A stretch of 64,000 nt of DNA. Origin: Muribaculaceae bacterium. GTDB lineage: Bacteria; Bacteroidota; Bacteroidia; Bacteroidales; Muribaculaceae. Of the stretch, positions 37,861 to 57,098 are shown piece after piece (the first letter of the stretch is position 1; each line of letters begins with the position of its first letter). The position numbers and the translations under genes were made by a program. The stretch covers positions 1-64,000 of the forward strand of contig JAFLUA010000009.1 of assembly GCA_022508985.1 (NCBI GenBank), in the 5' to 3' direction. The notes under the pieces are model-generated. The model did not search any database. It was given only the letters and a program-made list of their open reading frames with translations, and was not told the DNA's origin.

Positions 37861-38220
37861 TTTTATCAAAAAAAGGACGAGGTGGGGATATTGTCGGCTC
37901 ACCGAGCCGACGATGGTGGATGGGATGCCGGCGCGTGTCCCCAGCCTGCGCTGCGCCCTACGGGCTTGCTTGACAGGGTTTGTCCTAATTGACGCCTCTC
38001 CGCCCCGATCAATAGCTGGCGAAAAGGCTTGGAGAGCCGATAATACGGAAAATCGACGAAGTCGCTTGCGAAGCAAGAAACCCCAGTCGAGCGCGTAGCG
38101 CGGAGACTGGGGAGGTCGGTGCGCACCTCCTCTCTCGGCGGGTCGGAGACTCGCCAATGTCACCGCGTCCACAGCCACGGAGCGCTCTCGCTATATCGCT
38201 CGCGCGCCCCACACTTGGCG
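37861..38220. repeat. Structured intergenic repeat block A
   Basis: This region lies between the 1001-aa gene's start and the terminator of the first susCD operon, and has no credible gene. It is a chain of hairpins: GTCGGCTC-ACC-GAGCCGAC (37893-37911, perfect), GGCTT-GGA-GAGCC (38026-38038), CCCCAGTC/GACTGGGG (38081-38088 with 38105-38112, perfect, enclosing GCGC-GTA-GCGC), GGAGGT/ACCTCC (38111-38116 with 38125-38130) and GGCGGGTC-GGA-GACTCGCC (38137-38155, one G-U). Positions 37942-38002 match block B at 56 of 61 bases. Confidence 0.7.
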
Positions 38221-38222
38221 GC

Positions 38223-38252
38223 AAAAAAAAAGAGGTGTGCGGATGCACACCC
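38223..38252 (-). terminator. Terminator of the first susC-susD operon
   Basis: GGTGTGC (38234-38240) and GCACACC (38245-38251) pair around GGAT. On the minus strand the stem is followed by a run of nine or so U residues (plus-strand A tract before it). It lies about 25 nt behind the susD stop. A T-rich stretch on the other side makes it potentially bidirectional. Confidence 0.88.
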
Positions 38253-38277
38253 CTTTTCTATTGAGATTTTTGTAGGA

Positions 38278-40170
38278 TTAGTTTTGATTTGAATCCCACC
38301 ATACGGGAATAGTCCACATATCGGCTGCATTCCACCAACCGTCGTAGCTGCCATTTGTCATAGTAGCACCGGGTACCTTTTCACCGATAGCGTTGAGCTG
38401 TGCGGTGTTGTAGTTGAACTCGTGGCTCGAAACCTGTGCGCGACGAGGATATTTGCCCATAGGAATGTTGAGTTGAGCACTGCCATTGAGGTAGTATTCG
38501 CCGGGAACTTTCCAGTTAAGGAAGATTTCGGGATCATAGTCGTAGCGGCGCATATCGTTCCACTTTTCGGGTGAGAATGACATAGCGATGCGTTTTTGAG
38601 TCATAATCTTGCCAAGAGTGATGTCGGCTGCTGTACCGATACCATTGTTGAGGAAGTTGTCGATATCGGCTTGTTCCATCGGGGTGAACGAGGGGCAAGT
38701 AGCGTAGCGGCTGTCTTGGTTAACCCATACGTTGAGTTGCTCATTCATAGCATCGATATTAGCCTTGATACCATTTTTGTATGCGGTGAAAGCTTCCGAT
38801 TTGTTGCCCTGGTTGAAGAGGACTTCAGCGCGGATAAAGCAAGCTTCTGAATAAGAACCAATGAAGTGAGGCGAGGTAGCGCGGGTGTAGAACGTACCCG
38901 AGAGGGTAGAGTTGTCGTTACCGGCTACAACATAGCGGAACATGTTGGGCTGTGCTTGGAAGCCTACCGAGCGGCTACGTTGGTCGATAAACACTGTGTC
39001 GCCATCGTGGCCAGTCACAGCTGTAATGGCAAAACCACCATTTACAAAAGCATCCGGAGCCTGTACGCCACTATTGAGCAGACGCGGGTTGTTGGTGTCG
39101 TTAACCATATCAATACCGATAGTACGACGCCAGAGGCCGTTGTCGCTATATTTTATAGTCTGCTGATAGGCTGATGTTGCATCTTGGCCGTTAGCATGAG
39201 CCCAGGTGAGGATTTTGTCGGCACGGGGGTCTTCAACGCCATAGCCACCGAAGTTGGTGAGGTTTTCGTATACTGTACGCGGGAAGTAGTAACCGCTATT
39301 CATACCGATTACAGAGAATAGACCGCTCCAGTCGGTAGGTTCTGCCCAACCAAGGTTATCGTTAGGTGTGTTACCGGTGTCGGTAGGACGATAGGTCATG
39401 TTGTCGGAATTGCTCTGCATAGCTTTGTCGAGGCTGGCAAGGATAGCTGCCGGGTCGTATTTGAGGTCGGCTGCACTACCATTACCTTTCTTCGAGAGCT
39501 TGTTGAGCTGACGAGCTTTGAGGAAGTAAGCAAATTTGATCCATTTGTTCACGTCGCCATTGCCCCAAGCATCGTTTGCCGAGAGAGCCACAGCGTTCGG
39601 GCCCTGTGTCATCGAGAGATATTCGATACCTGTTTCGAGGTCGGCAAGCACGTGTTCAAACATTTCCTTACCGGTGTCGTAGAAAGGTGTTACGTTTTCA
39701 CCGAGAGCATCGTTGTAGGGAAGTTCGCCATGAAGGTCGTTCATCAAGGCAAAACCAAGAGCTTTGATTACATAAGCAGCACCGATGTAGTGATATGCTT
39801 CAGCTTTTTCTGCCGATGAAATTAGGTCGTTAAGGTTACATGCAGCACCTACATACCACCATTGGTAAGCCGTTGTTGTTGGGAAATAAACGGTTGTGCC
39901 GGCGGTAAATTGCCATTGGCCTAAGATGCCGTATGTGCCAGTACGTGCGTTTGTTACAATGTCGCCTGTAATAACTTCGGTAGGACGACCTGCGATATTT
40001 ATCGCGTGATTGGTGTAGAATTGGATATGAGCGAGGCGCTGGTAGTATTCGGCAGCCGCGTTTGTAGGCGTATTCGGGTTGGTGTTTACATCAAGCCAGT
40101 CGTTGCAAGAGGTCGTCAGTAGCCCGCAAGCCCCGATAAGCGCCGGTATGATATATTTTGTTAGTTTCAT
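38278..40170 (-). CDS. SusD/RagB-family nutrient-binding lipoprotein
   Basis: The outer-surface lid protein of a SusCD importer, 630 aa. The lipoprotein signal peptide MKLTKYIIPALIGACGLLTTSC is followed by NDWLDVNTNPNTPT, typical of the SusD-like_2 group. A helical TPR-like body and the conserved C-terminal QKRIAMSFSPEKWNDMRRYDYDP follow. The ATG at 40170 is preferred over a TTG-initiated extension to 40182. It follows its susC by 27 nt. The substrate cannot be read from sequence; no glycosidase is adjacent. Confidence 0.93.
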   Translation of the reverse strand: MKLTKYIIPALIGACGLLTTSCNDWLDVNTNPNTPTNAAAEYYQRLAHIQFYTNHAINIAGRPTEVITGDIVTNARTGTYGILGQWQFTAGTTVYFPTTTAYQWWYVGAACNLNDLISSAEKAEAYHYIGAAYVIKALGFALMNDLHGELPYNDALGENVTPFYDTGKEMFEHVLADLETGIEYLSMTQGPNAVALSANDAWGNGDVNKWIKFAYFLKARQLNKLSKKGNGSAADLKYDPAAILASLDKAMQSNSDNMTYRPTDTGNTPNDNLGWAEPTDWSGLFSVIGMNSGYYFPRTVYENLTNFGGYGVEDPRADKILTWAHANGQDATSAYQQTIKYSDNGLWRRTIGIDMVNDTNNPRLLNSGVQAPDAFVNGGFAITAVTGHDGDTVFIDQRSRSVGFQAQPNMFRYVVAGNDNSTLSGTFYTRATSPHFIGSYSEACFIRAEVLFNQGNKSEAFTAYKNGIKANIDAMNEQLNVWVNQDSRYATCPSFTPMEQADIDNFLNNGIGTAADITLGKIMTQKRIAMSFSPEKWNDMRRYDYDPEIFLNWKVPGEYYLNGSAQLNIPMGKYPRRAQVSSHEFNYNTAQLNAIGEKVPGATMTNGSYDGWWNAADMWTIPVWWDSNQN

Positions 40171-40197
40171 ATTGATTTTCAAAATTGAAGTGTTTTA

Positions 40198-43100
40198 TTA
40201 GAAAGTCAAGTTGATACCGAAAGCGAAGCTTGCTGTAGCGGGAACACCGCAGTAATCGAAGCCTACCGATGACGAGCCACCTACACCGGCACCTGAAGCG
40301 GCTGCTTCGGGGTCGCCGTCATAGTTGGTGAAGAGCAACAAGTTGCTTGCCGAGGCCGTGATAACGGCGCGTTTGAAGGCTTTAGTCTTGGCAAGGAGCG
40401 ACTTGGGAAGGCTGTAAGACAAGCTGAGGGTACGTAGACGAAGGCTGTTAACCTTTGTGATATAGTTAGCTGTTTCGTTTCCGTAGTAGCTGGTATAATA
40501 GTTCTTGATGATGTTGTAACCGAGCTGTGTCGTACCGTTTATGGTGTATACCTGGTCGGGAGCAAATTCATAGTGACGGTCTTCGTAAATGGGGTTGTCG
40601 TTTGTACCTACGTTTTCAACACCGTCGATAACGAGGGTCTGATTACGTACGTCGGCTGAGAACTGGCTCGTACCGGCATTGGTCATGGTGTATTTTGTGC
40701 CGTTATAAACGTCGCCACCTACGCGGAATTCCCACAGCATGTCGAGTGTGAAGTCTCTGAAACGGAGTGTGTTGGTCCAACCGCCGGTGAATGTCGATTC
40801 ACGGTTACCTACTTCAATCTTAGTTGCGTCGGCTAATGGCATGCCGTTTGCATTAAGCACAACCTTGCCTTCGTGTTGCTTGTAGTTATTATAGTTCGCT
40901 GCGGTGGGGTCGTCGGCTTTTACGCGTTGCCATTTCGTACCGGAAATTGCCATGAAGTCGCCTCCCGAGAACGAAGCAGCCTGTGCTGTGCCAAATTGTA
41001 CGTCGGTTACGTACATAATATCCATACCTTTCAAGAGGCCTTCGAGGCGGCCACGGTTACCTGCCATGTTGATACCTGTTTCCCATGTCCAGTCTCTTGT
41101 GTCGACGGGCGTGCCGCTGATCATCAATTCCATACCTTTGTTGAGCACGTTACCTGCGTTGAACGAGCAGAAGATATAACCTGTCGATTGCGGGCCGCGC
41201 GGCGAAAGAATCTGGTTGAATGAGTTGTTGGTATAGTATGCATAGTCGAATTTCAAGCGATTCTTGAACAAGCGAAGTTCGAGACCGATTTCGGTCGACT
41301 CTGTCATTTCGGGTTTGAGATAGGGGTTACCACGTGTCCACGTGTTGCCAAGCGATACCATGCCACCTACATAAGAGCCTACGGGCCAAAGGTCGGTATT
41401 GGTTTCGTATGCACCGGTGTCTTTACCTACTTTTGCCCAGCTGGCGCGGATCTTACCGAATGTGAGAATGTTGTCGTTATACTCGGGGTTGATTTGCTTG
41501 ATAAGTTCGGTGAACACCAAAGCACCCGATACCGACGGGTAGAAGTAAGAGCGGTTTTCCAGAGGAAGTGTCGAGGTCCAGTCGTTACGACCTGTTACTG
41601 TCAAGAACACGGTGTTGCGCCAGTCGGCACGGAATTCACCGAAGAGACCTACGAGGCGCTTGTTACTGATTGAGTAAGAGAATTTCTTGCTCGACTCGGG
41701 AGCGTTGTCGTATGAGAAGAAGTCGGGCACTTGGAAGCCGTATGCCATACGATATGTGCTCGTTGAGTGTGTGTCGTCGGTAGAGAGACCGGCGAGGAGA
41801 TTGAGGTTGAAGTCGCCAAACTGTTTGTTGAAGTTGGTCATCAAGCTGTGGTTGAGGTATTGATATTCGCGAGTGTTGTTACTCATCATACCGTCTTGCC
41901 ATTCGAGCTTGGCAACGCCACCGGCGGCAAGAGTCTTGTTGTTGTCGGTGGTATATGTGTCGATACCTAAGCGATAGCTTACCCACCACCAGTCGGTGAT
42001 GTCGGCTTTGATGCTGAAGTTACCGGTGAAGCGGCGTGTCTTATCCCATAGTTTGTTCTTGTTGATAATCCAGTAGGGGTTGTCGCTTTCGTTCCACGGG
42101 TCGAGGCGGTCGCCAAACATACGATAGCGTGTGCCGTCTTCGTTGAGATAATGACGCATGTCGTCGGTCGTGCCAAAGTTGAACAGGCGGGTGAGGGCAC
42201 CGTCGCCGCTTGAGTTATAAAGGCCGCCCGAGGTGAGAGTCTTGTCGGTGTTGGCCTGCGAGTAAGCAGCATTGGCACCGAAGGTAAACATTTTCCATTT
42301 CTGTTCGCCATTGAAGCGGAAGGTAGCTTTGCTATAGCCTGTTTCGGGAACAACACCGGTCTGGTCGTAGTAAGACCCCGAGAGGTAGAAGCTGCTGTTT
42401 TCAGTACCACCAGCTACGCTCACGTTGGTATCCCATATACCGCCATTCTGGAAGAAGTTGCCGATATTGTCGTATACGCGGTCGTTGGCACCATATTTTT
42501 CACCCCAAGAGGTGTAGGCATAGTCGTTGTAAACAGTGCCGGTATATACGCCACCGCTATAGAGGTCTTCCATATAACCGCGCTTATATTGTGTCTGAGC
42601 TTTGGGCACGTTCTTAACCCATGAGCTGATATAGCGAGCCGAGAGGTTTACCTCTACTGTGCCTGCTTTACCTTTCTTCGTGGTGATGAGGACAACGCCG
42701 TTGGCTGCACGCGAACCGTAAAGTGCCGATGCGGCCGGGCCCTTAAGAATAGACATGCTCTCGATATCTTCGGGGTTGATGTCCATTACACGGTTAGACG
42801 ATGTTGTTGACGAGTTGGTAGAACCGTCGAAGGCCGAGTTGCCGCCTACACTCGACGAGTTATCATAGATGATACCGTCGACTACGAAAAGAGGCTGGCT
42901 GTCTTTGGTCTCAGCTGCCGAAGTAGCACCGCGGAGGATAATCTGCGCACCCGAACCTGCGGCACCCGACGATTGGGTGATATTAACACCTGCCACTTTA
43001 CCTGCCAGCGACGAAATGGCGTTGGAGGTCTTGTTTTTCATTAGCTCGTCGGAGTTGAGCTCATCGAGAGCATAACCCAGCGACTTGCGGTCTTTCTTAA

Positions 43101-43464
43101 TACCAAGAGCCGTTACCACAACTTCGTCGAGGTTGGTTGAATTGGGTGTAAGGACTACCTTCACGGGCTGGCCGTTATACACAACTTCGCTTGTGTTGTA
43201 GCCTACATAGCTGAATACGAGAGTGCTCCCTGCGGGGGCATTTACGCTGAAGTTACCATCGATATCGGTAACCACACCGCCGGTTTGGCCTTTTACTACG
43301 ACTGATACGCCGATCAAAGGCTCGCCGTTTTCGTCAACAACCGTACCGGTTGCGCGTGAGCTTTGCGCCGTGGCTGTAAACCCGTACGATGGCGAGCCAC
43401 TGAAGACTGCCGTCATGCCGAGCGATAGGCACAGTGCAAAAAACAAAACTAACTGTTTTTTCAT
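40198..43464 (-). CDS. SusC/RagA-family TonB-linked outer membrane protein
   Basis: The beta-barrel transporter of the first SusCD pair, 1088 aa. It has a signal peptide (LVLFFALCLSLGMTAVFSG), a carboxypeptidase-D-like regulatory domain (GTVVDENGEPLIGVSVVVKG), a TonB box region (LDEVVVTALGIKKDRK), a plug (ALSSLAGKVAGVNI-like, ILRGATS, ESMSILKGPAASALYGSRAANGVVLITTKKG) and a barrel ending ATASFAFGINLTF. No signalling extension for an anti-sigma factor is present. Its leader of about 150 nt carries three direct repeats. Confidence 0.96.
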   Translation of the reverse strand: MKKQLVLFFALCLSLGMTAVFSGSPSYGFTATAQSSRATGTVVDENGEPLIGVSVVVKGQTGGVVTDIDGNFSVNAPAGSTLVFSYVGYNTSEVVYNGQPVKVVLTPNSTNLDEVVVTALGIKKDRKSLGYALDELNSDELMKNKTSNAISSLAGKVAGVNITQSSGAAGSGAQIILRGATSAAETKDSQPLFVVDGIIYDNSSSVGGNSAFDGSTNSSTTSSNRVMDINPEDIESMSILKGPAASALYGSRAANGVVLITTKKGKAGTVEVNLSARYISSWVKNVPKAQTQYKRGYMEDLYSGGVYTGTVYNDYAYTSWGEKYGANDRVYDNIGNFFQNGGIWDTNVSVAGGTENSSFYLSGSYYDQTGVVPETGYSKATFRFNGEQKWKMFTFGANAAYSQANTDKTLTSGGLYNSSGDGALTRLFNFGTTDDMRHYLNEDGTRYRMFGDRLDPWNESDNPYWIINKNKLWDKTRRFTGNFSIKADITDWWWVSYRLGIDTYTTDNNKTLAAGGVAKLEWQDGMMSNNTREYQYLNHSLMTNFNKQFGDFNLNLLAGLSTDDTHSTSTYRMAYGFQVPDFFSYDNAPESSKKFSYSISNKRLVGLFGEFRADWRNTVFLTVTGRNDWTSTLPLENRSYFYPSVSGALVFTELIKQINPEYNDNILTFGKIRASWAKVGKDTGAYETNTDLWPVGSYVGGMVSLGNTWTRGNPYLKPEMTESTEIGLELRLFKNRLKFDYAYYTNNSFNQILSPRGPQSTGYIFCSFNAGNVLNKGMELMISGTPVDTRDWTWETGINMAGNRGRLEGLLKGMDIMYVTDVQFGTAQAASFSGGDFMAISGTKWQRVKADDPTAANYNNYKQHEGKVVLNANGMPLADATKIEVGNRESTFTGGWTNTLRFRDFTLDMLWEFRVGGDVYNGTKYTMTNAGTSQFSADVRNQTLVIDGVENVGTNDNPIYEDRHYEFAPDQVYTINGTTQLGYNIIKNYYTSYYGNETANYITKVNSLRLRTLSLSYSLPKSLLAKTKAFKRAVITASASNLLLFTNYDGDPEAAASGAGVGGSSSVGFDYCGVPATASFAFGINLTF

Positions 43465-43531
43465 AACAAAAATTTAGTTTAATGAAATGTTAAAATAGTA
43501 TTAGATTAACTACTTGTTTAATTAAGGTATA

Positions 43532-43579
43532 TCTGTAGAATGTTTAATTTATCTGTAGAATATTTGGTTGTCTGTAGAA
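43532..43579 (-). repeat. Three TTCTACAGA direct repeats in the susC leader
   Basis: On the minus strand TTCTACAGA occurs at 43579-43571, 43560-43552 and 43540-43532, with starts 19 and 20 nt apart and AT-rich spacers. They lie about 70-115 nt before the susC start and behind the candidate -7 box, so they would be in the transcribed leader. They could be protein-binding sites on one face of the DNA helix (two turns apart), or RNA sites. Confidence 0.6.
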
Positions 43580-43623
43580 ACGGTGAATCCTGTTATGAAT
43601 ATCACTCCTAAATTTTGGCGTGG

Positions 43624-43631
43624 CAAATATA
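43624..43631 (-). promoter_or_regulatory. -7 box of the first susC-susD operon
   Basis: TATATTTG on the minus strand is a perfect TAnnTTTG. No TTG was found at the usual upstream spacing. An A-tract (minus strand, 43657-43674) lies where an upstream activating element would be. The predicted start near 43618 gives a leader of about 150 nt. Confidence 0.6.
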
Positions 43632-43656
43632 AATAAAATTTTTGCGAGAATTGTTA

Positions 43657-43674
43657 TTTTTTTTTTTTTTTTTT
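43657..43674 (+). repeat. Homopolymer of 18 T
   Basis: Eighteen consecutive T residues on the plus strand (A on the susC strand) lie about 25 bp upstream of the susC -7 box. Such tracts slip during replication and could alter promoter spacing or bending, and they are also sequencing-error prone. Confidence 0.8.
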
Positions 43675-43720
43675 GTTAAAAAATATTACACGACCCCTAA
43701 TTTTGTTCACCAGCGTAGGG

Positions 43721-43955
43721 GGCACAGCACGTCGCGAGGTGGTGTGCCATGAGGTGACGGCTCGGAGAGCCGATGTAAGGATAACCACAGCCTGCGCTAC
43801 ACCCTATGGGCTTGCTTGACAGGGGTTATCCTAATTGACGCCTCTCCGAGGCGTCCTCATCCTGGCACTGCTCGCTAACGCTCGCGTACTCGGCTATCTA
43901 TGGTTACGCCCGTCTCGGGCGTGGCTGTCGCCGTCGGCGCGATCCAATTCCTTAT
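43721..43955. repeat. Structured intergenic repeat block B
   Basis: The region lies between the first susC promoter and the terminator of the second susCD operon, and has no credible gene. Hairpins: GGCACA/TGTGCC (43721-43748), CGGCTC-GGA-GAGCCG (43758-43772, perfect), GACGCCTC-TCC-GAGGCGTC (43837-43855, perfect) and ACGCCCG-TCT-CGGGCGT (43906-43922, perfect). GGATAAC (about 43779-43785) can pair with GTTATCC around a 40-nt loop. Positions 43788-43848 match block A at 56 of 61 bases. Confidence 0.7.
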
Positions 43956-43963
43956 TGCGCTAC

Positions 43964-43996
43964 AAAAAAAGAGGGGCACCGGATGGTGCCCCTCTC
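43964..43996 (-). terminator. Terminator of the second susC-susD operon
   Basis: GAGGGGCACC and GGTGCCCCTC form a perfect 10-bp stem around GGAT; seven A residues on the plus strand give the U-tract on the minus strand. It lies about 25 nt behind the second susD stop, and shares its loop and geometry with the terminator of the first susCD operon. Confidence 0.92.
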
Positions 43997-44015
43997 TTGT
44001 GTATTTAGCTTTTGA

Positions 44016-45851
44016 TTACCAGCCTTTAGTTTGAGAAAGGGTGTAGCCTTTTTCAGCGTAAGACTCGATCAAAGCGGGAGTCAAAGGATAGAGATAAGCG
44101 CGGTTTTCGTCGAATGCGTTACGCGGGATAGCGTTGGTCGGTACGTAGAAACCGTGCATTTGAGCCAAGTTAGAACCGTTGTAAACAGTCCACTTGCTTT
44201 GGTCGAGCACGTCAGCAACGTTGGTAACGACTGCAGTAGAACCTGACGACATGTTGCCAGTGAGTTCTTCGTTGAAGTCGATTTCGCAACCGAGCATAGT
44301 AGCCGGGTATTTGCGGTTGTCCATGTAGCTGAGTTTGCCCCAACGACGGATGTCAACGAGACGGCTGTATTCGAGAGCGAGCTCAAGACGACGTTCGCGA
44401 CGGATTTCCCAGAGGAGGGGATCAACCGACGGGTCACGGTCGGGGTCGAAGTCGGCTGTGATGTCAGCAACTTTGAGGGGAGCTGTGTTAACAGCGCCGT
44501 TTTCTTGACCTACTTCGTCAACGGGACGAGCGCGGAGCACGTTGATTGATTTGTCGATAGCGGCTTGGTCGGCCTGGCCGAGTTCTGCTTTAGCTTCGAT
44601 CCAGTTGAGGAGCACTTCGCCGTAGCGCATTACCGGTGCAAAGTTAACGTTTGTTACCGATGCATATTCCGGGTGCTGCTGCATTTGACCTGTACCTTGG
44701 AATGTCGGGCCAATGCGGTCGATAAACTTATAAGGATAAACGCGTGTAGCTGAAGAGATATTGGGTTTTGTGCCAATAAGAGCTTCGAGGCGCGGGTCGC
44801 GAGTCTGAGCGAGGTCCTTAATTTTGAACGAACCGGCGTTAGCTACGCTTGATTTCTGATAAACTTTACCGTCGTTGCAGATAACCGACTGGAGGAAAGC
44901 GAGGTTGAGGGCGCAAGGAGCCGATTCTTCACCGTTGCTATAAGAAGCGATACAGTGGCGTACAGCCTGAGCGTCGCTATAAGCGCGGTAGAGGAGGGGT
45001 TCGCTACCCATACCGGCAGCGTTGAACGAGCCGAATACTTCGCGGATAGGTTTGTCGATAGCGTATCTGCCGCTGTTGATTACGAGGTCGCCTGCTTCAA
45101 CTGCGAGTTGGAAGTATTTCTGAGCGAGAGATGCATTGTTTTCGTTGTATTTCTGCCAAGCACCTTCGAAGATCATCCATTGGCTGATGAAACCTGCCGC
45201 AACGTAGCGGTTGAGCACGTTTGTGCCGTCGTTTGTACGCATGTTGGCGAGGATTTCTTTACACATGTCATAAACATGGTCCATTACAACGGTACGCGGG
45301 TCGCGGTCTTTGTAAAGTTCGTCGAGTTCGTTTGTTTGTACTGTCTTTTCATAGTAGGGAACATCGCCGAAAGAGTTTACGAGACGATAGTATTCAAACG
45401 ATTTGAAGAATTTAGCAACTGCCATCCAGTGCTTGTAAGCTTCTTCTGAGAGAACACCTTTTTCATTCATCATCTCGATGCGGTCCATGAACACGTTTGC
45501 TTTACGTACCTGGGCAAAAGTCCATGTTTGACCGTTCGACCAGTTGAGTACAGAAGTACCTGTAGAGCCTCCGGCACCACTTGTAGTAGCTGTCGGGAAG
45601 TTGGCTTGCATACCGCTGGAAGCGTAGTCGTCGGAATAGGTCATCTGGCGGTGGGTGTAGTTAGCTGTCCAACCGCTATTGTAGCCTATAAAGTATTCGG
45701 TATAGAAACCGTTGGCATAGAGACGAGCATCTTCTTCGCTATTCCAGAACGTCTCGTCGGTAGGCGTGTTAAGTTGTGGACGGTCGAGCACATAGTCGCA
45801 TGACGAAAGAGTCAATACGGCTGCTGCGGCCATTATGAATAATTTTTTCAT
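44016..45851 (-). CDS. SusD/RagB-family nutrient-binding lipoprotein
   Basis: The second SusD-like protein, 611 aa. The signal peptide MKKLFIMAAAAVLTLSSC ends in lipobox LSSC and is followed by DYVLDRPQLNTPTDETFWNSEEDARLYANGFY, the RagB/SusD start. The conserved PVMRYGEVLLNWIEAKAELG and IRRERRLELALEYSRLVDIRRWG motifs of the SusD C-terminal half are clear. It follows its susC by 12 nt. Sequence similarity to the first SusD is low, so the two pairs are not a recent duplication. Confidence 0.95.
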   Translation of the reverse strand: MKKLFIMAAAAVLTLSSCDYVLDRPQLNTPTDETFWNSEEDARLYANGFYTEYFIGYNSGWTANYTHRQMTYSDDYASSGMQANFPTATTSGAGGSTGTSVLNWSNGQTWTFAQVRKANVFMDRIEMMNEKGVLSEEAYKHWMAVAKFFKSFEYYRLVNSFGDVPYYEKTVQTNELDELYKDRDPRTVVMDHVYDMCKEILANMRTNDGTNVLNRYVAAGFISQWMIFEGAWQKYNENNASLAQKYFQLAVEAGDLVINSGRYAIDKPIREVFGSFNAAGMGSEPLLYRAYSDAQAVRHCIASYSNGEESAPCALNLAFLQSVICNDGKVYQKSSVANAGSFKIKDLAQTRDPRLEALIGTKPNISSATRVYPYKFIDRIGPTFQGTGQMQQHPEYASVTNVNFAPVMRYGEVLLNWIEAKAELGQADQAAIDKSINVLRARPVDEVGQENGAVNTAPLKVADITADFDPDRDPSVDPLLWEIRRERRLELALEYSRLVDIRRWGKLSYMDNRKYPATMLGCEIDFNEELTGNMSSGSTAVVTNVADVLDQSKWTVYNGSNLAQMHGFYVPTNAIPRNAFDENRAYLYPLTPALIESYAEKGYTLSQTKGW

Positions 45852-45863
45852 GATTTCTTAAAT

Positions 45864-48800
45864 TTAGAAGTTTAACTGAATACCAACGTTGAAGTTCATC
45901 ATAGCCGGTGTTCCTACACCAGTACGTCCTGAGTTGTAGTTAGATGAGTTCCACATAGAAACGCCAGACTTAACTTCGGGGTCGATGGGCAGACCGTGTA
46001 GTTTGTCGAATGTAGCGATGTTTTCAGCTGCTACATATACGCGGAGGCGGTTGATGAGAGCCTTGCGAGTGAGCTCGCTCGGGAGTGTGTAACCGAGAGT
46101 GATATTCTTGATGCGGAAGTAAGCAAGGTTGAGCAAGTAGCGGTCAGATACTTGGTATGTCATCACTGTGCTTGAGCCGGCTGCGTTAAGAGCGCGGGGA
46201 TAGAATGCGTCGGTATGTTCTTCTGTCCAGTAGTCGCTTGCGATAGCTTGAGGCATAGCACCGTCGCCAGTGTTCCAACCCGGAGTTACGAGCGGACCTT
46301 CACCCCAGATTTTACGTTTGCCGATACCTTGACCGAAGATAGAGAAGTCGAAACCTCTGTAGTTAACGCCGAGGCGTACACCATATTCGTAGCGAGGTGT
46401 GCTGTTACCAATCTTCACGCGGTCGCCGTGGTCGTCGAGCATGCTGGTGTTCGGGTGGATGCGGCCGTCGCCGTCGATATCTTTATACTTAACGTCGCCG
46501 GGGCCAATCAAGATTGAACCGCTCTGGAAGTAGTCTTCGTAGATACCGTTGGGGTCAGAGAGTTTGTTCATCTGTTTTGCACCTGTTGTGCCTTCGGGTA
46601 CTTCTTTACCGTCGAGAGCCCATACAGTTACGTGGTTGCCGGCAGCGTCGTAAACGAAGTCGTCTTTCTGGTAGAGACGGTCTACAACATAGCCCCAGAT
46701 TTCACCGTATTCCTTACCGTTGTAGTTGCTGGTGATAACTTGGCTCGAACCATATTTTGTGATGTGAGTCAAAGCGTCAGATAATGTAACGGTAGCGTTA
46801 ACAGAGAGGTCTTTGTTGAACTGGTGGTTGTAGTCGAGGGTAAGTTCCCAACCGCGTGTGCGGAGGTTACCATAGTTACCTGTGGGAGCGCCTGCACCGA
46901 AGGTTACGGGGATACCTTCGCCCGGCACGAGCATGTTCTTAGTGTCGCGTTGATACCAGTCGAAAGCAACACCGAGGCGGTTGTTGAAGAAGCGAGCGTC
47001 GATACCAACGTCGGCTGTCTGGATGTCCTGCCATGTGATGTCACCTGCAACGGCAGCGGGAGTACCTACGTAAACGGCTTTGTCACCGCTCGGTGTAATC
47101 CAGGTACCGGTAGCCTGAGAGATAGTAGCAACGTAGAGTGAAGAGCTTACCGATTGGTCACCAATCGAACCCCACGAACCGCGGATCTTGAATTGAGAGA
47201 GAGCGGGTTGTGCCCATTTCATCCAAGCTTCCTGGTCGAGACGCCAACCGAGAGAGAACGACGGGAATGCACGCCATTTCATACCTACGGGGAACTTCGA
47301 AGAAGCATCGTAGCGTACGTTAGCTTCGAGCAAGTAGCGGTCGAAGAGAGCGTAGTTGATACGGCCGAAGAAACCGAGCTGGCCTTCCCAGTAGAGGTTA
47401 CCGCTTGATGTCTGTGTACCTGTAGTCTTGTCGAATGAAGGACGGAGGATGTCGCTAAGGTTGGTGATCTGTGCCCAGTGGTTTTCAGAATCCCAGTCAG
47501 CACGGTTCATACCGATCATAGCTTTGAGTTGGTTGTTTTCGTTGATCTTCCAATCATAGTCCATAGTCATGTTAAGAGTATGGCGCTTGTCGTTGGTGAT
47601 AGAACGATAGATGTGGTCGGGGTTACTACCGTTAGATGTGTATTGATAGTAGTTGAGGTAGTAAGCGGGCATAGCTTCGGGATCGCTTTGAGAAACAACC
47701 TGGCCTGCTTTGTTAACGTAAACGCGGTTGCCGTTGTCGTCGTAGCGAGCAACACCTGCCGCCCATGTGTCACCGGCGGTGAATTTCGTACCGGGACGGA
47801 AGATAGAGAGGTCTTCTTTTGCGAATGTATAATCGAGGTTGAAGTGCCAGTTTTCGGTGAAGTTAAGTGTCAAACCGAAGTTAGCATTCATATAAGAGTT
47901 CTGGCGAGAAGCTGTGTTAGAGTTCTGGAGTTCCCAGTACGGGCTGCGGATACCATAACCTCTTTCGTCAACGCCGAAGGGCTGATAGTGGTCCCAACGA
48001 TAGAGATAGTACCATGCGTCGGCTGTTGTCGAGCTTGTAGCATAGCTATACTCTTTGTTACGGAGTGAATATTGCAAACCGGCACGAACAGAGAGGTATT
48101 TGTTAACCTCGGTGCTGAGACGAGCAGCAATGTTGTAACGATGGAATTGGTCAACTTTAGCAGCTTTGTTAAGACCGTCCTGTGCGAGGTAACCGAGGCT
48201 GATAGTATATTGTGTCTTGCCTGCTTTACCTGTAACAGAAGCGTTGTGCTTCATTGTGGGAGCCCATTCGCGAATGTAGTATTCGTACGGGTCGTAAGGA
48301 CGGAGGAAGAGTTTGCGGTTGTTGGCGTCAACAACCCAGTCACGACCATAGGTGAAAGGATCGTCTTTGCCTACTTTGCCGCTCCATTTGTCGAGCCATT
48401 CTCTTTGGAGAGCAACAGCTTCGTCGGTGATATACCAGAAAGCACCTACTACAGTACCTTTGGCAGCGTGCAATGCATCGAGACGATATTGCGAACCGTC
48501 GATAGTTGCCATTTCGATGTCTTTCGAAACGTTCGACCAAGCGAAGTTACCTGAGTAAGATACGTCAACGCGGTCGGTGGTTGCACCTTTCTTAGATGTG
48601 ATGAGGATTACACCGAAAGCAGCTTTGGCACCATAGATAGATGCAGAAGCAGCGTCTTTAAGAATAGAGATAGACTCGATGTCGTCGGGGTTAACAACCT
48701 GGATTGAGGGGATCTCAACGTTATCCAAGAGGATAAGTGGAGAAGCACCACCTTGGAAAGAACCGATCTGACCGCGGATGCGGATTGTCGGGTCTGAACC

Positions 48801-49310
48801 AACCTCACTGTCGGGGAGGGTAATGTTAAGACCTGCGGTTGTGCCTTGGAGACCACGACCAACGTCGGGAATTTGACGGCCAACGAGAGCCTTGTCAACG
48901 TCGACGGTAGCAACGGCGCCAGTGAGGTTCTCACGACGCTGTGTGCCGTAACCAACGACTACAATGTTGTCGAGAGCTTCGCTCGACGGCTCGAGTACGA
49001 CGTGCATCGTAGGAGCAGCTTTCTGCTGTACGGTCTTGCAACCGATAAAGCTGAATTCAAGGGTGGCACCCTGTTTTACGGTGATGGTAAAGTTACCATT
49101 GATGTCTGTAGAGACGCCTGTTTTCTGACCTTTTTCAGTAACACTTGCGCCTATAATAGGCTCACCGTCAGTTTCTACGACTGTACCGCGAACGGTAATC
49201 GTACCTTGAGTCGCATTGTTAGCCTGCGGCTCCTGTGCAGCATAGGCTTGCATTCCCATGCCAAACAAGAAACAACAAGAAACAATGAGATAACTTAACT
49301 GTTTTCTCAT
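45864..49310 (-). CDS. SusC/RagA-family TonB-linked outer membrane protein
   Basis: The barrel transporter of the second pair, 1148 aa. It has a signal peptide ending near AYAAQ, a carboxypeptidase-D-like domain (GTVVETDGEPIIGASVTEKG), a TonB box region (DNIVVVGYGTQRRENLTGAV), a plug (LQGTTAGLNITLPDSEVGSDPTIRIRG and ISILKDAASASIYGAKAAFGVILITSKKG) and a barrel ending MMNFNVGIQLNF. The A-x-x-A-F-G-V in the plug replaces the commoner R-A-A-N-G-V. No regulator or enzyme gene is attached. Confidence 0.96.
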   Translation of the reverse strand: MRKQLSYLIVSCCFLFGMGMQAYAAQEPQANNATQGTITVRGTVVETDGEPIIGASVTEKGQKTGVSTDINGNFTITVKQGATLEFSFIGCKTVQQKAAPTMHVVLEPSSEALDNIVVVGYGTQRRENLTGAVATVDVDKALVGRQIPDVGRGLQGTTAGLNITLPDSEVGSDPTIRIRGQIGSFQGGASPLILLDNVEIPSIQVVNPDDIESISILKDAASASIYGAKAAFGVILITSKKGATTDRVDVSYSGNFAWSNVSKDIEMATIDGSQYRLDALHAAKGTVVGAFWYITDEAVALQREWLDKWSGKVGKDDPFTYGRDWVVDANNRKLFLRPYDPYEYYIREWAPTMKHNASVTGKAGKTQYTISLGYLAQDGLNKAAKVDQFHRYNIAARLSTEVNKYLSVRAGLQYSLRNKEYSYATSSTTADAWYYLYRWDHYQPFGVDERGYGIRSPYWELQNSNTASRQNSYMNANFGLTLNFTENWHFNLDYTFAKEDLSIFRPGTKFTAGDTWAAGVARYDDNGNRVYVNKAGQVVSQSDPEAMPAYYLNYYQYTSNGSNPDHIYRSITNDKRHTLNMTMDYDWKINENNQLKAMIGMNRADWDSENHWAQITNLSDILRPSFDKTTGTQTSSGNLYWEGQLGFFGRINYALFDRYLLEANVRYDASSKFPVGMKWRAFPSFSLGWRLDQEAWMKWAQPALSQFKIRGSWGSIGDQSVSSSLYVATISQATGTWITPSGDKAVYVGTPAAVAGDITWQDIQTADVGIDARFFNNRLGVAFDWYQRDTKNMLVPGEGIPVTFGAGAPTGNYGNLRTRGWELTLDYNHQFNKDLSVNATVTLSDALTHITKYGSSQVITSNYNGKEYGEIWGYVVDRLYQKDDFVYDAAGNHVTVWALDGKEVPEGTTGAKQMNKLSDPNGIYEDYFQSGSILIGPGDVKYKDIDGDGRIHPNTSMLDDHGDRVKIGNSTPRYEYGVRLGVNYRGFDFSIFGQGIGKRKIWGEGPLVTPGWNTGDGAMPQAIASDYWTEEHTDAFYPRALNAAGSSTVMTYQVSDRYLLNLAYFRIKNITLGYTLPSELTRKALINRLRVYVAAENIATFDKLHGLPIDPEVKSGVSMWNSSNYNSGRTGVGTPAMMNFNVGIQLNF

Positions 49311-49580: not shown

Positions 49581-49671
49581 AGACGCGGAGTGTCTACTAA
49601 CCATTCACAACAATATACGATGAAACGCAGAGCCGCGGAGCGGCTATTTATTGTGCAGCCCGTCCCGGGCT
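49581..49671. repeat. Structured intergenic repeat block D
   Basis: Three 15-nt hairpins with 6-bp arms and three-base loops lie in 91 bp: AGACGC-GGA-GTGTCT (49581-49595, one G-U), AGCCGC-GGA-GCGGCT (49631-49645, perfect) and AGCCCG-TCC-CGGGCT (49657-49671, perfect). None has a T-tract, so they are not terminators. The second shares its core GCCGC-GGA-GCGGC with a hairpin in block C. Confidence 0.7.
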
Positions 49672-49712
49672 ATGATGGTCGCCTCTTGCTTTTACGATTG
49701 GAAAAAACTTTG

Positions 49713-49720
49713 TAATTTTG
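49713..49720 (+). promoter_or_regulatory. -7 box of the tsaD operon
   Basis: TAATTTTG is a perfect TAnnTTTG and lies 19 nt before the tsaD ATG. No TTG at the optimal spacing is present; the nearest candidates are 12 and 24 nt away. Confidence 0.55.
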
Positions 49721-49739
49721 CGTACACATTATTAATAAG

Positions 49740-51999: not shown

Positions 52000-52020
52000 C
52001 GATTAATACCTTAATATACC

Positions 52021-53520: not shown

Positions 53521-53836
53521 GGTTTATATTATTTGAAATCATTATAAATAGTAGGTAACTTTTATTTTTAACAAAAAATAGCGCCACAAATATCGCAAAG
53601 CTATGTTTATTTTTTGTCGCGCAAATGAACTTAAAAGATGTGTCGGCTTCTAAATACCTATATTTCAGCTGAATTGCGGTTTTGAAAGGCTTGGTTTTTA
53701 GTGCTTATCACAGATGTTGCTTAAATATCTGTAATAAATACACTTGCAGAAAAAATCAAAAATGCAAAAAAAAATGCACTTGTTTTGAAAAAAATTTTTT
53801 AGGAATTTTGTAACCGCAAAAGCAACCCCATAAAAA
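53521..53836. other. AT-rich region upstream of dnaA
   Basis: 316 bp without a gene. It holds several A/T runs and the promoter of dnaA. One partial DnaA-box-like word (TTATCACA near 53704) occurs, but no cluster of TTATCCACA boxes, so there is no support for an origin here. Confidence 0.55.
53780..53810 (+). promoter_or_regulatory. Promoter of dnaA
   Basis: TTG (53780-53782), a 20-nt spacer and GAATTTTG (53803-53810) match the Bacteroidota pattern, with G for T at the first base of the -7 box. The leader to the ATG is about 20 nt. Confidence 0.55.
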
Positions 53837-55228
53837 ATGACGAACACTCACCAAGAATTATGGGCGCAATGCTGTCAATTTATAAAAGACAACATTTCGC
53901 CTCAACACTTCGACACTTGGTTCCGCGATATCACTTGCGATAGCTTTGATGCCGTGGAGCGCAAGCTCGTGTTGAAGGTGCAGTCGTCGTTTTTTGTTGA
54001 TATCATCGAGGCACGATTCTTGCCTGTAGTGCGTGCGGCCGTCAAAAAAGTTTTTGGCGAGAATGTGAGCATCTTCTATCGCTACCTCATCGTTAACAAC
54101 GACCCCACCACAGGAACGAGCCAGAAGAGTGTGGCACCGTCGCAGAGCATTATAGCCCAACCCAAACCGGCTGCAAACCCTTTCCGCAGCGAGCCTAACG
54201 AAGACTTTGATTCGCAGCTTAACCCGCGCTATACTTTCGAGAATTATTGTGTGGGCGACAGCAACAAGATAGCGTGCTCGATAGGCGAGGCCATCGGCAA
54301 CGATCCGTCGTTGAAGACGTTTAACCCGCTATTTGTATTCGGCCCCTCGGGCGTGGGTAAAACGCACCTCATACAGGCTATCGGCATACGCGTAAAAGAG
54401 CGCAACCCGCAGGCAAGAGTGCTTTACGTCACGGCGCGTCTCTTCCAGAGCCAGTATACGGCAGCCGCTTCGAAGAACATCAACAATTTCTTCCATTTCT
54501 ATCAGGGTATCGACACGCTCATCATCGACGATATTCAAGACCTGCAGAATATGCCGGGCACTCAGAATACGTTCTTCCATATCTTCAACCATCTGCACAA
54601 TCACAGCAAGCAGATAATAATGTCGAGCGACCGTTCGCCGGCTGAGATGGAAGGCTTTGAAGAGAGGCTGTTGAGCCGCTTCAAATGGGGTATGCAGGTC
54701 GAACTCGAACGCCCCGACATCTCGTTGCGCCGCAGTGTGTTGAAACTCAAGGCCGAGCAAGATGGTTTGTCGTTGCCGACAGAAGTGGCCGAGTATATTG
54801 TTTCAAACATAACCAATAGCGTGCGAGAGCTCGAAGGCGTTGTTGTATCTCTTGTCGCTCATGCGGCTGCACTCAACACCGATATCACGCTCGAATTGGC
54901 ACAACGCGTCCTTGCCAATGCCGTGAAGATTAACCGCAAGCAGGTAAACTTTGAGATGGTAGCCGAGGCGGTAGCTTCATATTACAACATCCTCCCCGAT
55001 CAACTCTTCACCAAGACGCGTAAGCGTGAGGTTTCCGATGCCCGTCAGGTTGTGATGTATCTCGCTAAAAAGCTGGCTAAGATGCCGCTGACAACGATAG
55101 GCCATAAAATCGACCGCACACACGCTACGGTAATTTACGCTATCAACAATATCGAAGACCGTATGTCGACAGAGCGTAAATTGGTGGCCGATATCAACGC
55201 TATAGAAGCCTCGATAACAGGTCGTTGA
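53837..55228 (+). CDS. dnaA: Chromosomal replication initiator DnaA
   Basis: The AAA+ initiator that melts oriC, 463 aa. Domain I lies at the N-terminus (LWAQCCQFIKDNISPQHFDTWF). The AAA+ core has Walker A GPSGVGKTHLIQ and Walker B LIIDDIQDLQ. Domain IV, which binds DnaA boxes, has VSDARQVVMYLAKKLAKMPLTTIG and DRTHATVIYAI, where the usual GRDHTTVxHA is modified. No dnaN or recF follows, as is usual in Bacteroidota. It is monocistronic. Confidence 0.98.
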   Translation: MTNTHQELWAQCCQFIKDNISPQHFDTWFRDITCDSFDAVERKLVLKVQSSFFVDIIEARFLPVVRAAVKKVFGENVSIFYRYLIVNNDPTTGTSQKSVAPSQSIIAQPKPAANPFRSEPNEDFDSQLNPRYTFENYCVGDSNKIACSIGEAIGNDPSLKTFNPLFVFGPSGVGKTHLIQAIGIRVKERNPQARVLYVTARLFQSQYTAAASKNINNFFHFYQGIDTLIIDDIQDLQNMPGTQNTFFHIFNHLHNHSKQIIMSSDRSPAEMEGFEERLLSRFKWGMQVELERPDISLRRSVLKLKAEQDGLSLPTEVAEYIVSNITNSVRELEGVVVSLVAHAAALNTDITLELAQRVLANAVKINRKQVNFEMVAEAVASYYNILPDQLFTKTRKREVSDARQVVMYLAKKLAKMPLTTIGHKIDRTHATVIYAINNIEDRMSTERKLVADINAIEASITGR

Positions 55229-55282
55229 TAGAATGCTTACGGCATAGGCGTAGCCGTTAACAGCACTATTTTTTTTCGTAGA

Positions 55283-56005
55283 TTATTTAAGAATCGAAGC
55301 AATCTGTCGCCCCGAAGCCGACGGCAGAAGTTTTGTCAGGTAGTCGTACATCAGGCGGTACGATTCGACCGGAGTGCGCCCTTTTGATGTCTCGACAAAA
55401 TCTTCTCCAAAAAGATTTTCGGGCGTATTATATCGTGCAAGGCCCCAACCGAATTCCTTTCCTGTTTTACTCACGGCATACTCAAAATCTTCGATTACGA
55501 TGTGTGTGCCCATCTGCAACGACGTCAGTGAGCGCTCGAGGGCATTGCGGTTAACCTTATATTCAACATCGCCCAGGCCCGTGAGGTCGACAAGGTCGGT
55601 GGCAGTGCGCTTACGGCGTGGCAGTGCCTCAAAAAGTCTTTTCAGGTCGGGCGACAACATAGAGCCGAACTCCTCGATAGCGTTCAGCACCGTCGTGTCG
55701 CCAAGTTTGCCTTCGCTGCCGGATATAAGAGGCCGCGATGCACGACGCCAATTGACAAAATCGGCAAACCATTCAAGACTGATATACATCGTTTTACAAC
55801 CGAAAAACTTGCCGTAGGCGCATTTGCGACGACGGATAACAGGTCCTTTCCATTCCCACGGGCCGTCGAGGTCTTTGACAAACCATAAGTCGGGGTCGCT
55901 CATCTCTTCAACGGAAAAACCGGCAATGCTATTGCGGAAAAATGGCAGAAACCCTAACTCAAGTACCCGCTCTTCAAGGTCGTGTGCGCTGCTAAGGAGT
56001 CTCAT
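55283..56005 (-). CDS. Conserved protein, possibly AlkZ-related winged-helix type
   Basis: A 240-aa cytoplasmic protein. The conserved start (LEERVLELGFLPFFRNSIAGFSVEEMSDPDLWF followed by GPWEWKGPV and YGKFF) recalls a Bacteroidota/Firmicutes family that I remember as AlkZ-related; this is recollection, not proof. The catalytic QxQ/QxD motif of AlkZ DNA glycosylases was not found, so enzyme activity is doubtful. It overlaps the end of exonuclease III by 4 nt, and this coupling with a repair gene is consistent with a DNA repair role. Confidence 0.75.
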   Translation of the reverse strand: MRLLSSAHDLEERVLELGFLPFFRNSIAGFSVEEMSDPDLWFVKDLDGPWEWKGPVIRRRKCAYGKFFGCKTMYISLEWFADFVNWRRASRPLISGSEGKLGDTTVLNAIEEFGSMLSPDLKRLFEALPRRKRTATDLVDLTGLGDVEYKVNRNALERSLTSLQMGTHIVIEDFEYAVSKTGKEFGWGLARYNTPENLFGEDFVETSKGRTPVESYRLMYDYLTKLLPSASGRQIASILK

Positions 56006-56757
56006 AGCTTGATGTCAACGCCTACGGGGCAGTGGTCGGAGCCAAGTACTTCGGGATAGATTGATGCGTCGTTGAGAAGCCCGGCAATGCGCTCCGACAC
56101 AATGAAATAGTCGATACGCCAGCCCACATTGCGTGCGCGAGCTCCACCGCGGTAACTCCACCAGCTGTAGGCCGCTTTTTTGTCGGGATTGAAATGACGG
56201 TAAGTGTCGACATATCCGGCGTCGAGAAAACGCGTCATGCAGGCACGTTCTTCATCGGTAAAACCGGCGTTGTGGTGGTTCGACGATGGATTTGCAAGGT
56301 CTATTTCCTTGTGTGCCACGTTCATATCGCCACACACTATTACGGGCTTTGTCATGTCGAGTTCCTGGATGAATTTGAGGAATTCAGCTTCCCAATCAAC
56401 GCGATAGTCTAAGCGCGCAAGCTCGCTCTGCGAATTTGGCACATACACATTCACCAGATAGAAATCGACATACTCTAACACCAAAACGCGCCCCTCGTGG
56501 TCGTGACGCTCCACACCGATGCCGCGTCGAACCGAGAGAGGACGATGCCGCGTAAATATAGCAGTGCCCGAATATCCCTTGCGCTCTGCGTAGTTATAGT
56601 AAGCCTCGTAGCCGTCGAAATGCAAGTCGATTTGTCCTTCCTGCAGCTTCGTCTCTTGAAGACATACAAAATCGGCGTCGAAGCCTTTGAAAATTTCAGC
56701 GAAACCTTTACTAACAATGGCTCTGAGACCATTGACATTCCATGATATAAATTTCAT
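56002..56757 (-). CDS. xth: Exodeoxyribonuclease III
   Basis: An AP endonuclease and 3'-5' exonuclease of base excision repair, 251 aa. Motifs: MKFISWNVNGLRAIVSKG, LQETKLQEGQI, VCGDMNVAHKEIDLANP, YSWWSYRGGARARNVGWRIDYF and SDHCPVG at the end, which contains the catalytic His. It is the first gene of a two-gene operon with the 240-aa protein. Confidence 0.97.
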   Translation of the reverse strand: MKFISWNVNGLRAIVSKGFAEIFKGFDADFVCLQETKLQEGQIDLHFDGYEAYYNYAERKGYSGTAIFTRHRPLSVRRGIGVERHDHEGRVLVLEYVDFYLVNVYVPNSQSELARLDYRVDWEAEFLKFIQELDMTKPVIVCGDMNVAHKEIDLANPSSNHHNAGFTDEERACMTRFLDAGYVDTYRHFNPDKKAAYSWWSYRGGARARNVGWRIDYFIVSERIAGLLNDASIYPEVLGSDHCPVGVDIKL

Positions 56758-56775
56758 AGCTCAAAATATTTGCTG

Positions 56776-56783
56776 CAAAGATA
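56776..56783 (-). promoter_or_regulatory. -7 box of the xth operon
   Basis: TATCTTTG on the minus strand is a perfect TAnnTTTG, 18 nt before the start codon. TTG at 56800-56802 gives a 16-nt spacer, somewhat short. Confidence 0.65.
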
Positions 56784-56820
56784 GCGATTTTTTCGTTCAC
56801 AACGGGGCATATATGACATC

Positions 56821-57060
56821 GTCGGCTCGCCGCCCCGCTCACCCCATCCGCGCAGCATCGAGTCGGAGATTCGACAATGTCCCATGCCGCGGAGCGGCTA
56901 CACTATGGTTAGCCGTGTACAGGGAGCGATAGCGAGCTATGCCCGGATTGCGCCGTAAAAAAATTGAATCAGTGCCGGAGGTACGGCACTTCGCGACTAA
57001 GGTGTCGCCCGCCCTCGGTATCTCCACCCTCTCTGGCGGCTCGGAGAGTCGCCAATATTA
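56821..57060. repeat. Structured intergenic repeat block C
   Basis: This lies between the divergent xth and gltX promoters, with no credible gene. Hairpins: CGAGTC-GGA-GATTCG (56859-56873, one G-U), GCCGC-GGA-GCGGC (56886-56898, perfect), AGTGCCG/CGGCACT (56971-56990, perfect 7-bp arms, 6-nt loop) and GGCGGCTC-GGA-GAGTCGCC (57035-57053, one G-U). After two of them the word CAATGTC or CAATATT follows, as behind the last hairpin of block A. Confidence 0.7.
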
Positions 57061-57098
57061 CGTTGGCGCGCTAGCAATCGCCGATACTGCTAAAAATA

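Follow-up and report, generated by a model that had tools for sequence, protein, structure and literature searches.

The window examined here, a stretch of 64,000 nucleotides from a Muribaculaceae bacterium (GenBank assembly GCA_022508985.1, contig JAFLUA010000009.1, positions 1 to 64,000), carries a set of small DNA hairpins whose three-base loop reads GGA on one strand and TCC on the other and which are gathered in four intergenic blocks, A to D, of 1,291 bp in total. Block A adjoins a gene (34815-37820) whose 1001-aa product has an N-terminal PPDK domain and matches a response regulator weakly, below the cut-off, two gene pairs for SusD-like proteins and TonB-dependent receptors (38278-49310) lie between blocks A, B and C, and block D is flanked by an Exo_endo_phos-family gene and a gene for a class I tRNA synthetase of the E/Q type (56002-58693). 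The hairpins are best read as orphan members of a new, loop-defined variant of the kind represented by repetitive extragenic palindromes (REPs) and REPtrons. All ten GGA/TCC hairpins listed in an initial annotation of this DNA were found by a scan of the window exactly where it had placed them, with arms and loops read out, and an eleventh with 5-bp arms (56972-56984) was added to its list. The features of the four blocks are as follows.

Block A, 37886..37911, minus strand: family-I hairpin with loop GGT, perfect 8-bp arms and tail AATATC (model R1, 38.6 bits)
Block A, 37939..38004, minus strand: reverse-strand unit AATTAGGACAAACCCTGTCAAGCAAGCCCGTAGGGCGCAGCGCAGGCTGGGG with a GGA hairpin whose pairing is lost (similar genomic places; 3 of 8 pairs remain, 37999, minus strand)
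Block A, 38026..38038, plus strand: GGA hairpin of 5 bp with a T-G closing pair, followed by GATAATACGG (hairpin scan)
Block A, 38040..38112, plus strand: tail and module with the GAA mini-hairpins GACGAAGTC and CTTGCGAAGCAAG (read from the sequence)
Block A, 38081-38112, plus strand: second GC-rich hairpin, CCCCAGTC...GACTGGGG, within the preceding module
Block A, 38137..38162, plus strand: GGCGGGTC-GGA-GACTCGCC, tail AATGTC (R1, 38.4 bits; hairpin scan)
Block B, 43758..43772, plus strand: CGGCTC-GGA-GAGCCG, tail ATGTAAGGATAACC (hairpin scan)
Block B, 43830..43855, minus strand: GACGCCTC-GGA-GAGGCGTC (TCC loop on the plus strand), tail AATTAGGATAACCCC (R1, 34.2 bits)
Block C, 49581..49595, plus strand: AGACGC-GGA-GTGTCT (hairpin scan)
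Block C, 49631..49645, plus strand: AGCCGC-GGA-GCGGCT, terminator-like (hairpin and terminator scans)
Block C, 49657..49671, minus strand: AGCCCG-GGA-CGGGCT (TCC loop on the plus strand), closed by G-C and hence not of the C-GNA-G type (hairpin scan)
Block D, 56857..56882, plus strand: ATCGAGTC-GGA-GATTCGAC, tail AATGTC (R1, 35.8 bits)
Block D, 56883..56946, plus strand: second subfamily, GCCGC-GGA-GCGGC (56886-56898), tail TACACTATGGTTAGCC, then a second hairpin-like stretch ending GCCCGG
Block D, 56972..56984, plus strand: GTGCC-GGA-GGTAC, 5 bp (hairpin scan)
Block D, 57034..57060, plus strand: TGGCGGCTC-GGA-GAGTCGCCA, tail AATATT (R1 match at 57035-57060, 37.0 bits)

The GGA loop is closed by a C-G pair in eight of the ten hairpins first listed, the exceptions being 38026-38038 (T-G) and 49657-49671 (G-C). 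The remark that the hairpins have no T-tract holds for most of them and fails for 49631-49645, whose tail is ATTTATTG, and for the minus-strand hairpin 56990-56971, both of which appear terminator-like in the scan.

A covarying hairpin family spread through the host genome

Blocks A to D contain 11 GGA/TCC triloops with arms of at least 5 bp and 8 with arms of at least 6 bp. In 1000 dinucleotide shuffles such triloops averaged 0.13 and never exceeded 2 for the first arm length, and averaged 0.04 with no more than 1 for the second, which bears out the impression that the hairpins are more ordered than chance ones. The short stems might point to chance or to general GC-rich palindromes, an explanation of negligible probability: a chance origin is refuted by the shuffles, none of the 1000 reaching the observed count, and the covariation described below speaks against it as well. 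Nine GGA/TCC hairpins in the 64-kb window have arms of at least 6 bp, eight of them in the blocks and the ninth inside a gene at 48704. When the window was combined with 20 sampled stretches (464 kb), GGA/TCC accounted for 21 of 109 intergenic triloops and fell outside the 20 commonest among 469 triloops in open reading frames (ORFs); eight of these stretches had been picked for likeness to block A (seven) or block D (one), so that the rate is not an unbiased genome-wide one, and some repeat copies were counted inside spurious ORFs.

The hairpins had been thought limited to the four regions, which proved incorrect, as block A has 33 more similar places genome-wide at E ≤ 10, 17 of them below E 0.01 and block B among these 17, and the list of genomic matches for block D is comparable. 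The module at 38040..38112, or parts of it, recurs elsewhere in the host genome at 90-97% identity, and the second subfamily of block D recurs exactly over 23 bp at C11:240973 and with a 78% match over 127 bases at C11:269862. A covariance model built from 22 copies gave 29 matches (E ≤ 0.01) in the 2.07-Mb genome, a number that includes the training copies and counts at least two places on both strands, and the family is thus dispersed in its host in the manner of REP-like elements. Its best-defined subfamily has the form NNCGNNTC-GGA-GANNCGNN followed by AATAAGG or AATGTC/AATATC, and the AATAAGG tail often continues with AACCCC and a second GC-rich hairpin.

Pairing is kept while the arm sequence varies, as had been proposed, both in the 22 copies of the model and in host-genome copies selected by their 3' half. 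Across the 22 copies, the covariation score is 0.471 (0.146 in shuffled copies), 32 cells are altered on both sides (11.6 in shuffles) and the paired fraction over eight pairs is 97.7%, none of 500 shuffles reaching any of these values; both-side changes occur at four of the eight pairs. Because the 22 copies had been chosen for pairing, a second set was picked by the loop and the 3' half alone, and among its 25 places in the window and the 20 stretches all eight pairs are formed in 15 and at least six in 22.

Some copies have unusual structures. At L035, the hairpin at 4124-4149 has a TCC loop although its flank AATGTCACCATG keeps the usual orientation, which may represent a loop inversion within the palindrome, as expected from template switching. 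Half hairpins AGTCGGA fused to a TATAGCCGCGGCGCGTG-like stretch and a complete hairpin recur at 4003-4190, 10105-10180 and 12015-12050 of L035, and judged by their sequence these fusions look like a joint made at the loop. Tandem GACGAAGTCGCTTGAGAAGCAAGAAACC-like modules, each with GAA triloop palindromes, lie at 9560-9760 of L039. Alleles of block D were searched for in 49 genomes of the genus, including the host's own, 46 of which gave a match; no pair of empty and filled sites was among them, both flanking genes being found and no single match to the 1.5-kb query spanning both in the 48 genomes other than the host's. The flanking genes lie about 2.7 kb apart in G294, and block D may be a mark of rearrangement.

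C-GNA-G hairpins crowd around Y1 genes of relatives

The initial annotation had suggested mobility by an unlinked enzyme, with a RAYT-like (REP-associated tyrosine transposase) Y1 gene as the candidate to look for. No Y1 gene is detectable in the host genome: the Pfam Y1_Tnp profile found no match there (positive control in 5 of 14 named genomes), nor did the Y1 protein of the relative G031 at E ≤ 10 (a query with matches in 161 of 397 family genomes) or a RAYT model at E ≤ 1e-8. The suggestion holds up in that a Y1 gene does sit among such hairpins in relatives. A Y1_Tnp match is present in 116 of 198 genomes of the family, and the hairpin model matches (E ≤ 0.01) in 20 of 198, host included, mostly weakly. 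Among nine Y1 loci inspected, three (G031, G011 and G070) have the gene flanked by GGA hairpins, and at a fourth, in G100, a single one is present; the loop is the same and the arms are others (GCGAGTC and TCGCCTC in G031, GCGCATC in G011, ACATGTC in G070), the arms GGCGAGTC and GTCGCCTC being common to the host genome and the flanks of the G031 gene.

Loop types were counted at 70 Y1 loci of the family, selected by protein alone (30 from the search, L132-L161, and 40 hand-chosen from its list, more matches having existed), and at 20 displaced control stretches, several kb off, on contigs carrying such Y1 genes. Among triloops with arms of at least 6 bp, C-GNA-G (a GNA loop closed by C-G) accounts for 157 of 446 at the Y1 loci and 0 of 74 at the displaced sites. 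The commonest combinations of loop and closing pair at the family loci are CGGAG (77), CGAAG (42), CGCAG (21) and CGTAG (17), the next type reaching 8; G-GNA-C was counted 8 times at these loci and 4 times in the controls, and 51 of 89 GGA/TCC hairpins fall within the two 250-bp bins adjoining the Y1 gene.

These counts bear on a role of the hairpins at the RNA level, whether as terminators, as 3' ends of mRNAs or as decoys that offer a GGA loop to a CsrA-like protein. Their intergenic placement would suit such a role, and CsrA binds GGA in loops. We nevertheless regard it as very unlikely, as all four GNA loops and not GGA alone occur at Y1 loci, the hairpins lie on both strands, few are terminator-like, and at gathering score Rfam matches nothing in the window except a 5S rRNA.

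The family loci gave rise to the GNA hypothesis, which was then tested on a named set, the best 80 of 545 confirmed loci from named genomes, and on a class-2 control; the independence of the named set is incomplete, with five sets of identical proteins across the groups and several titles naming Muribaculaceae. C-GNA-G makes up 166 of 397 triloops within 500 bp of the gene, compared with 14 of 193 beyond 1 kb, and 59 of the 80 loci have at least one such hairpin within 500 bp, 45 at least two. At 21 loci outside Bacteroidales, which were chosen by title and include many metagenome bins whose names may be wrong, the counts are 30 of 95 near and 3 of 68 far from the gene, with the hairpins present at 14 loci, among them Spirosoma, Akkermansia, Chryseobacterium, Planctomycetes and a complete Actinobacillus chromosome; a Spirochaetaceae locus (L246) has no C-GNA-G hairpins. 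The hairpin region of the Actinobacillus locus (L283) has ten matches in its own genome, self included. Since the three further matches below E 0.01 all lie within about 2 kb of it, they do not show dispersal in that genome.

As class-2 RAYT loci carry other leading loops, the loop type goes with the protein branch. In the same count, limited to loci of at least 3,200 bases (59 of 70 family loci, 23 of 30 class-2 loci, 9 of 11 long-frame loci with weak Y1_Tnp matches and 20 of 20 controls), C-GNA-G constitutes 124 of 229 triloops at Y1 loci, compared with 6 of 136 at class-2 RAYT loci of the same order (L318-L347, Bacteroidales; YIH.NP motif in 25 of 30), where T-ACA-A (22) and T-GCA-A (21) lead, and 2 of 18 at the weak Y1_Tnp loci. 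It may be a general rule that Y1 subclasses differ in loop type.

The Y1 enzyme of the relatives is not a classical RAYT. P0001, the 147-aa Y1 protein of G031, scores 71.5 bits against the NCBIfam model IS200, above the cut-off of 55, and 24.7 bits against REP_Tyr_transpos, far below the cut-off of 80, on which account a classical RAYT identity was rejected; among solved proteins, those closest to it in sequence are the transposase of ISHp608 (E 3.5e-8) and related transposases. A Y---Q--HH motif is found at 148 of 150 loci (69 of 70 in the family, 79 of 80 in the named set), a motif that marks TnpA_Y1 subclass 1.2, for which the REP column of Table 1 reads 'no' (PMC6006769). The HuH motif is NH.H in 102 of 148 proteins and DHIH or DHVH in 45, and W followed by Q occurs in 18 (5 unreadable). 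Since the WQ and DH[IV]H motifs are present in part only, the proteins are described as subclass-1.2-like, that is, apparently close to subclass 1.2 by motif. In a quick tree built from few columns, the class-2 proteins form one separate group with a support of 100.

Neighbouring C-GNA-G hairpins at most 110 nt apart (arms of at least 5 bp) stand in direct order in 132 of 153 cases at family loci, 91 of 110 in the named set and 15 of 19 in the host (window and seven repeat-bearing stretches). The likeness to REPs drawn initially holds, and that to bacterial interspersed mosaic elements (BIMEs) does not extend to their inverted neighbour order, direct order being the rule in most cases here. 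Around the Y1 gene the hairpins form two arrays that face each other: GNA lies on the gene strand in the nearest upstream hairpin of 39 of 42 named loci, and on the opposite strand in the nearest downstream hairpin of 32 of 38, counted over 71 of the 80 named loci after nine that were cut by contig ends or off the list had been dropped. Of 59 complete Y1 loci, 47 have the gene between inverted repeats of 22-289 bases, compared with 0 of 20 controls and 10 of 23 class-2 loci. Eight of the fifteen fully printed loci (L132, L133, L134, L136, L137, L141, L150 and L152) show a hairpin A with a ATTRTGGTTAACCCC-like tail and a second hairpin, and all eight also a shorter hairpin B with a GYCTTRTG-like tail; a layout like that of the second subfamily of block D is seen next to the Y1 gene in L156. 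Conservation beside the hairpins lies on the 3' side: the tail pattern, which was drawn from seen examples and covers a small fraction, follows 14 of 210 hairpins of the named set on the 3' side and is mirrored on the 5' side of none.

The evidence taken together also concerns classical GTAG REPs or BIMEs moved by a class-2 RAYT, which likewise combine small intergenic palindromes with variable complementary arms and, as here in relatives, a Y1 gene nearby. We consider this origin highly improbable and rejected the canonical candidate: none of 25 copies (window and 20 stretches) has a GT[AG]G lying 0-2 nt ahead of its 5' foot, neighbours are direct rather than inverted, the cognate protein fails the RAYT model, no RAYT was found in the host genome by that model, and class-2 loci carry the other loops given above.

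Origin and mobility of the hairpins

We consider it likely that the window hairpins are orphan, non-autonomous REP-like elements of a loop-defined class whose cognate enzyme is an IS200-like Y1 transposase. The mark of this class would be a C(GNA)G loop on one strand (GGA in the host), with arms free to drift provided that pairing stays, and its cognate genes in relatives would be those of the small IS200-like Y1 (HUH) transposases, which carry the Y---Q--HH motif and stand near subclass 1.2. The enzyme may bind the hairpin while the DNA is single-stranded during replication, with the sheared G-A loop as the recognition feature, and would cut in the conserved tail directly 3' of the hairpin (ATTRTGGTTAACC or similar). 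Such action could have moved or copied the units, after which the host genome would have lost the Y1 gene (or the 18-contig assembly lacks it) while the copies stayed.

Only tentatively, and with more doubt than confidence, do we propose that an entire branch of the IS200-like Y1 transposases recognises DNA by shape rather than by sequence, the shape being the fold of the C(GNA)G mini-hairpin on one strand. The promoters of the phage N4 virion RNA polymerase offer an example of an enzyme reading small DNA hairpins. By the rule for extraordinarily stable DNA mini-hairpins (Hirao, Yoshizawa; PMC4686876), a GNA loop stands on a stem with at least two G-C pairs, a property described there for oligonucleotides; C-G-closed GNA loops are found, at the level of sequence, at the Y1 loci and in eight of the ten listed window hairpins, the energy model being uninformative. 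Among known enzymes, the IS608 and ISDra2 transposases contact loop bases, some loop positions of Stenotrophomonas and Marinomonas REPs tolerate no change, and the E. coli REP enzyme has no loop sequence preference (PMC8266576).

Several observations weigh against the reading as orphan elements with a Y1 enzyme. As no Y1 gene was detected in the host genome, the link between Y1 and the hairpins rests on relatives, and no pair of empty and filled sites turned up for block D. The 29 copies are few for REPs, for which more than 100 per genome are usual (PMC2817692). Two covariation measures do not stand out from the shuffles, namely the number of pairs changed on both sides (4 compared with 3.1, matched by 134 of 500 shuffles) and the number of pair types (9 compared with 8.1, matched by 164 of 500). 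No C-GNA-G hairpin with arms of at least 6 bp lies within 500 bp of the gene in 21 of the 80 best named loci and in 19 of 59 complete family loci. T-GAA-A (37) and T-GGA-A (13) are also frequent among the 397 triloops near the gene in the named set, T-GAA-A is the commonest single type (20 of 95) at the 21 loci outside Bacteroidales, and two of the ten window hairpins have other closing pairs, G-C in one and T-G in the other; because T-GAA-A and T-GGA-A are frequent near the gene, the C-G closing pair is a strong preference and not a law. A DNA folding energy model, moreover, gives the GGA and TCC strands equal stability.

The hairpins A and B of G100 count on the same side, being carried within a 147-bp element (L358-L387) whose inverted ends read TAATGTC(A/G)CTAAA, so that Y1 is not the sole route of spread. 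This element carries two GGA hairpins in direct order; 44 of its 71 matches cover at least 112 bases, 16 of these 44 share exact ends (query 15-161), and flank repeats of 8-12 bp accompany 19 of 23 copies, compared with 12 of 506 mismatched left/right flank pairs, two of the 23 (L368 and L376) having common flanks. Judged by these ends and flanks, it bears the mark of a DDE-type miniature inverted-repeat transposable element (MITE), and because it carries hairpins, these can also spread as passengers. Such MITEs could account for the spread of the hairpins at large, Y1 genes merely sharing decorations such as transcription barriers or parts of long inverted repeats, and the target-duplication-like flanks, the shared ends and the inverted repeats around Y1 genes (47 of 59 loci) all fit this explanation. 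We judge it unlikely, because neither of two exact 13-base forms of the inverted end of G100 occurs in the window or in the seven repeat-bearing host stretches searched, the host-genome copies inspected are mosaics without evident common ends, and in many genomes Y1 genes, unlike the displaced sites, are crowded by hairpins whose arms are unrelated.

Relation to known systems and significance

The orphan REP-like elements proposed here share with GTAG REPs and their class-2 RAYT/TnpA_REP genes, together termed REPtrons (PMC3733652, PMC6006769, PMC8266576), short dispersed intergenic palindromes with alternative complementary arms and an adjoining Y1 HUH gene. The proposed elements differ from them in having the C-GNA-G loop and the 3' tail as constant parts, an IS200-like protein bearing Y---Q--HH and neighbours in direct order, and in lacking the GT[AG]G foot. 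CGTC REPs have a CGTC terminus and a loop of 4-5 (PMC3733652), whereas the host hairpins, read by eye, have a loop of 3 and the tail AATAAGG or AATGTC; REPINs and BIMEs consist of inverted neighbours, which here are mostly direct. The atypical hairpins of TnpA_Y1 subclass 2.6 in Bacteroidetes (PMC6006769) also combine an adjoining Y1 gene and genomic copies with the lack of GT[AG]G, but their protein has YIH[QN]NP (PMC6006769), and the 23 class-2 loci counted above are led by T-ACA-A and T-GCA-A. Subclass 1.2 (Quentin et al. 2018, PMC6006769) agrees in the Y---Q--HH motif, a length of about 148 aa, low copy number and Bacteroidetes hosts, and differs in its 'no' for REPs, most loci here carrying C-GNA-G hairpins.

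TIRtrons (Di Nocera et al. 2013, PMC3733652) resemble the present loci in having a Y1 gene between inverted repeats, some TIRtron repeats being dispersed and some self-complementary; their proteins are reported to share the motifs that separate RAYTs from IS200 transposases, and the available part of that paper describes no GNA loop. The IS200/IS605 group (IS608, ISDra2) shares the protein family and the use of single-strand hairpins, but its end hairpins are on the same strand, unlike the nearest left and right hairpins here, which are on opposite strands and belong to arrays of several. In agreement with the initial statement that no family with this loop had been described, the open-licence literature, including the available parts of PMC3733652, PMC6006769 and PMC8266576, yielded neither a GNA-loop REP class nor a REP for subclass 1.2, and the supplements of PMC6006769, which give REP sequences for each gene, could hold such hairpins.

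The best-known REPs, abundant in many bacterial genomes, are defined by a GTAG foot and a RAYT enzyme, and a loop-marked class on another Y1 branch would widen this kind of element. Such a class offers a simple search signature, the C-GNA-G triloop, and would tie a well-studied oligonucleotide fold to a natural enzyme. If the enzyme does read shape, arm sequences could drift, which could explain why subclass 1.2 has been recorded without a REP, and the very stable GNA fold of DNA would have a widespread natural role.

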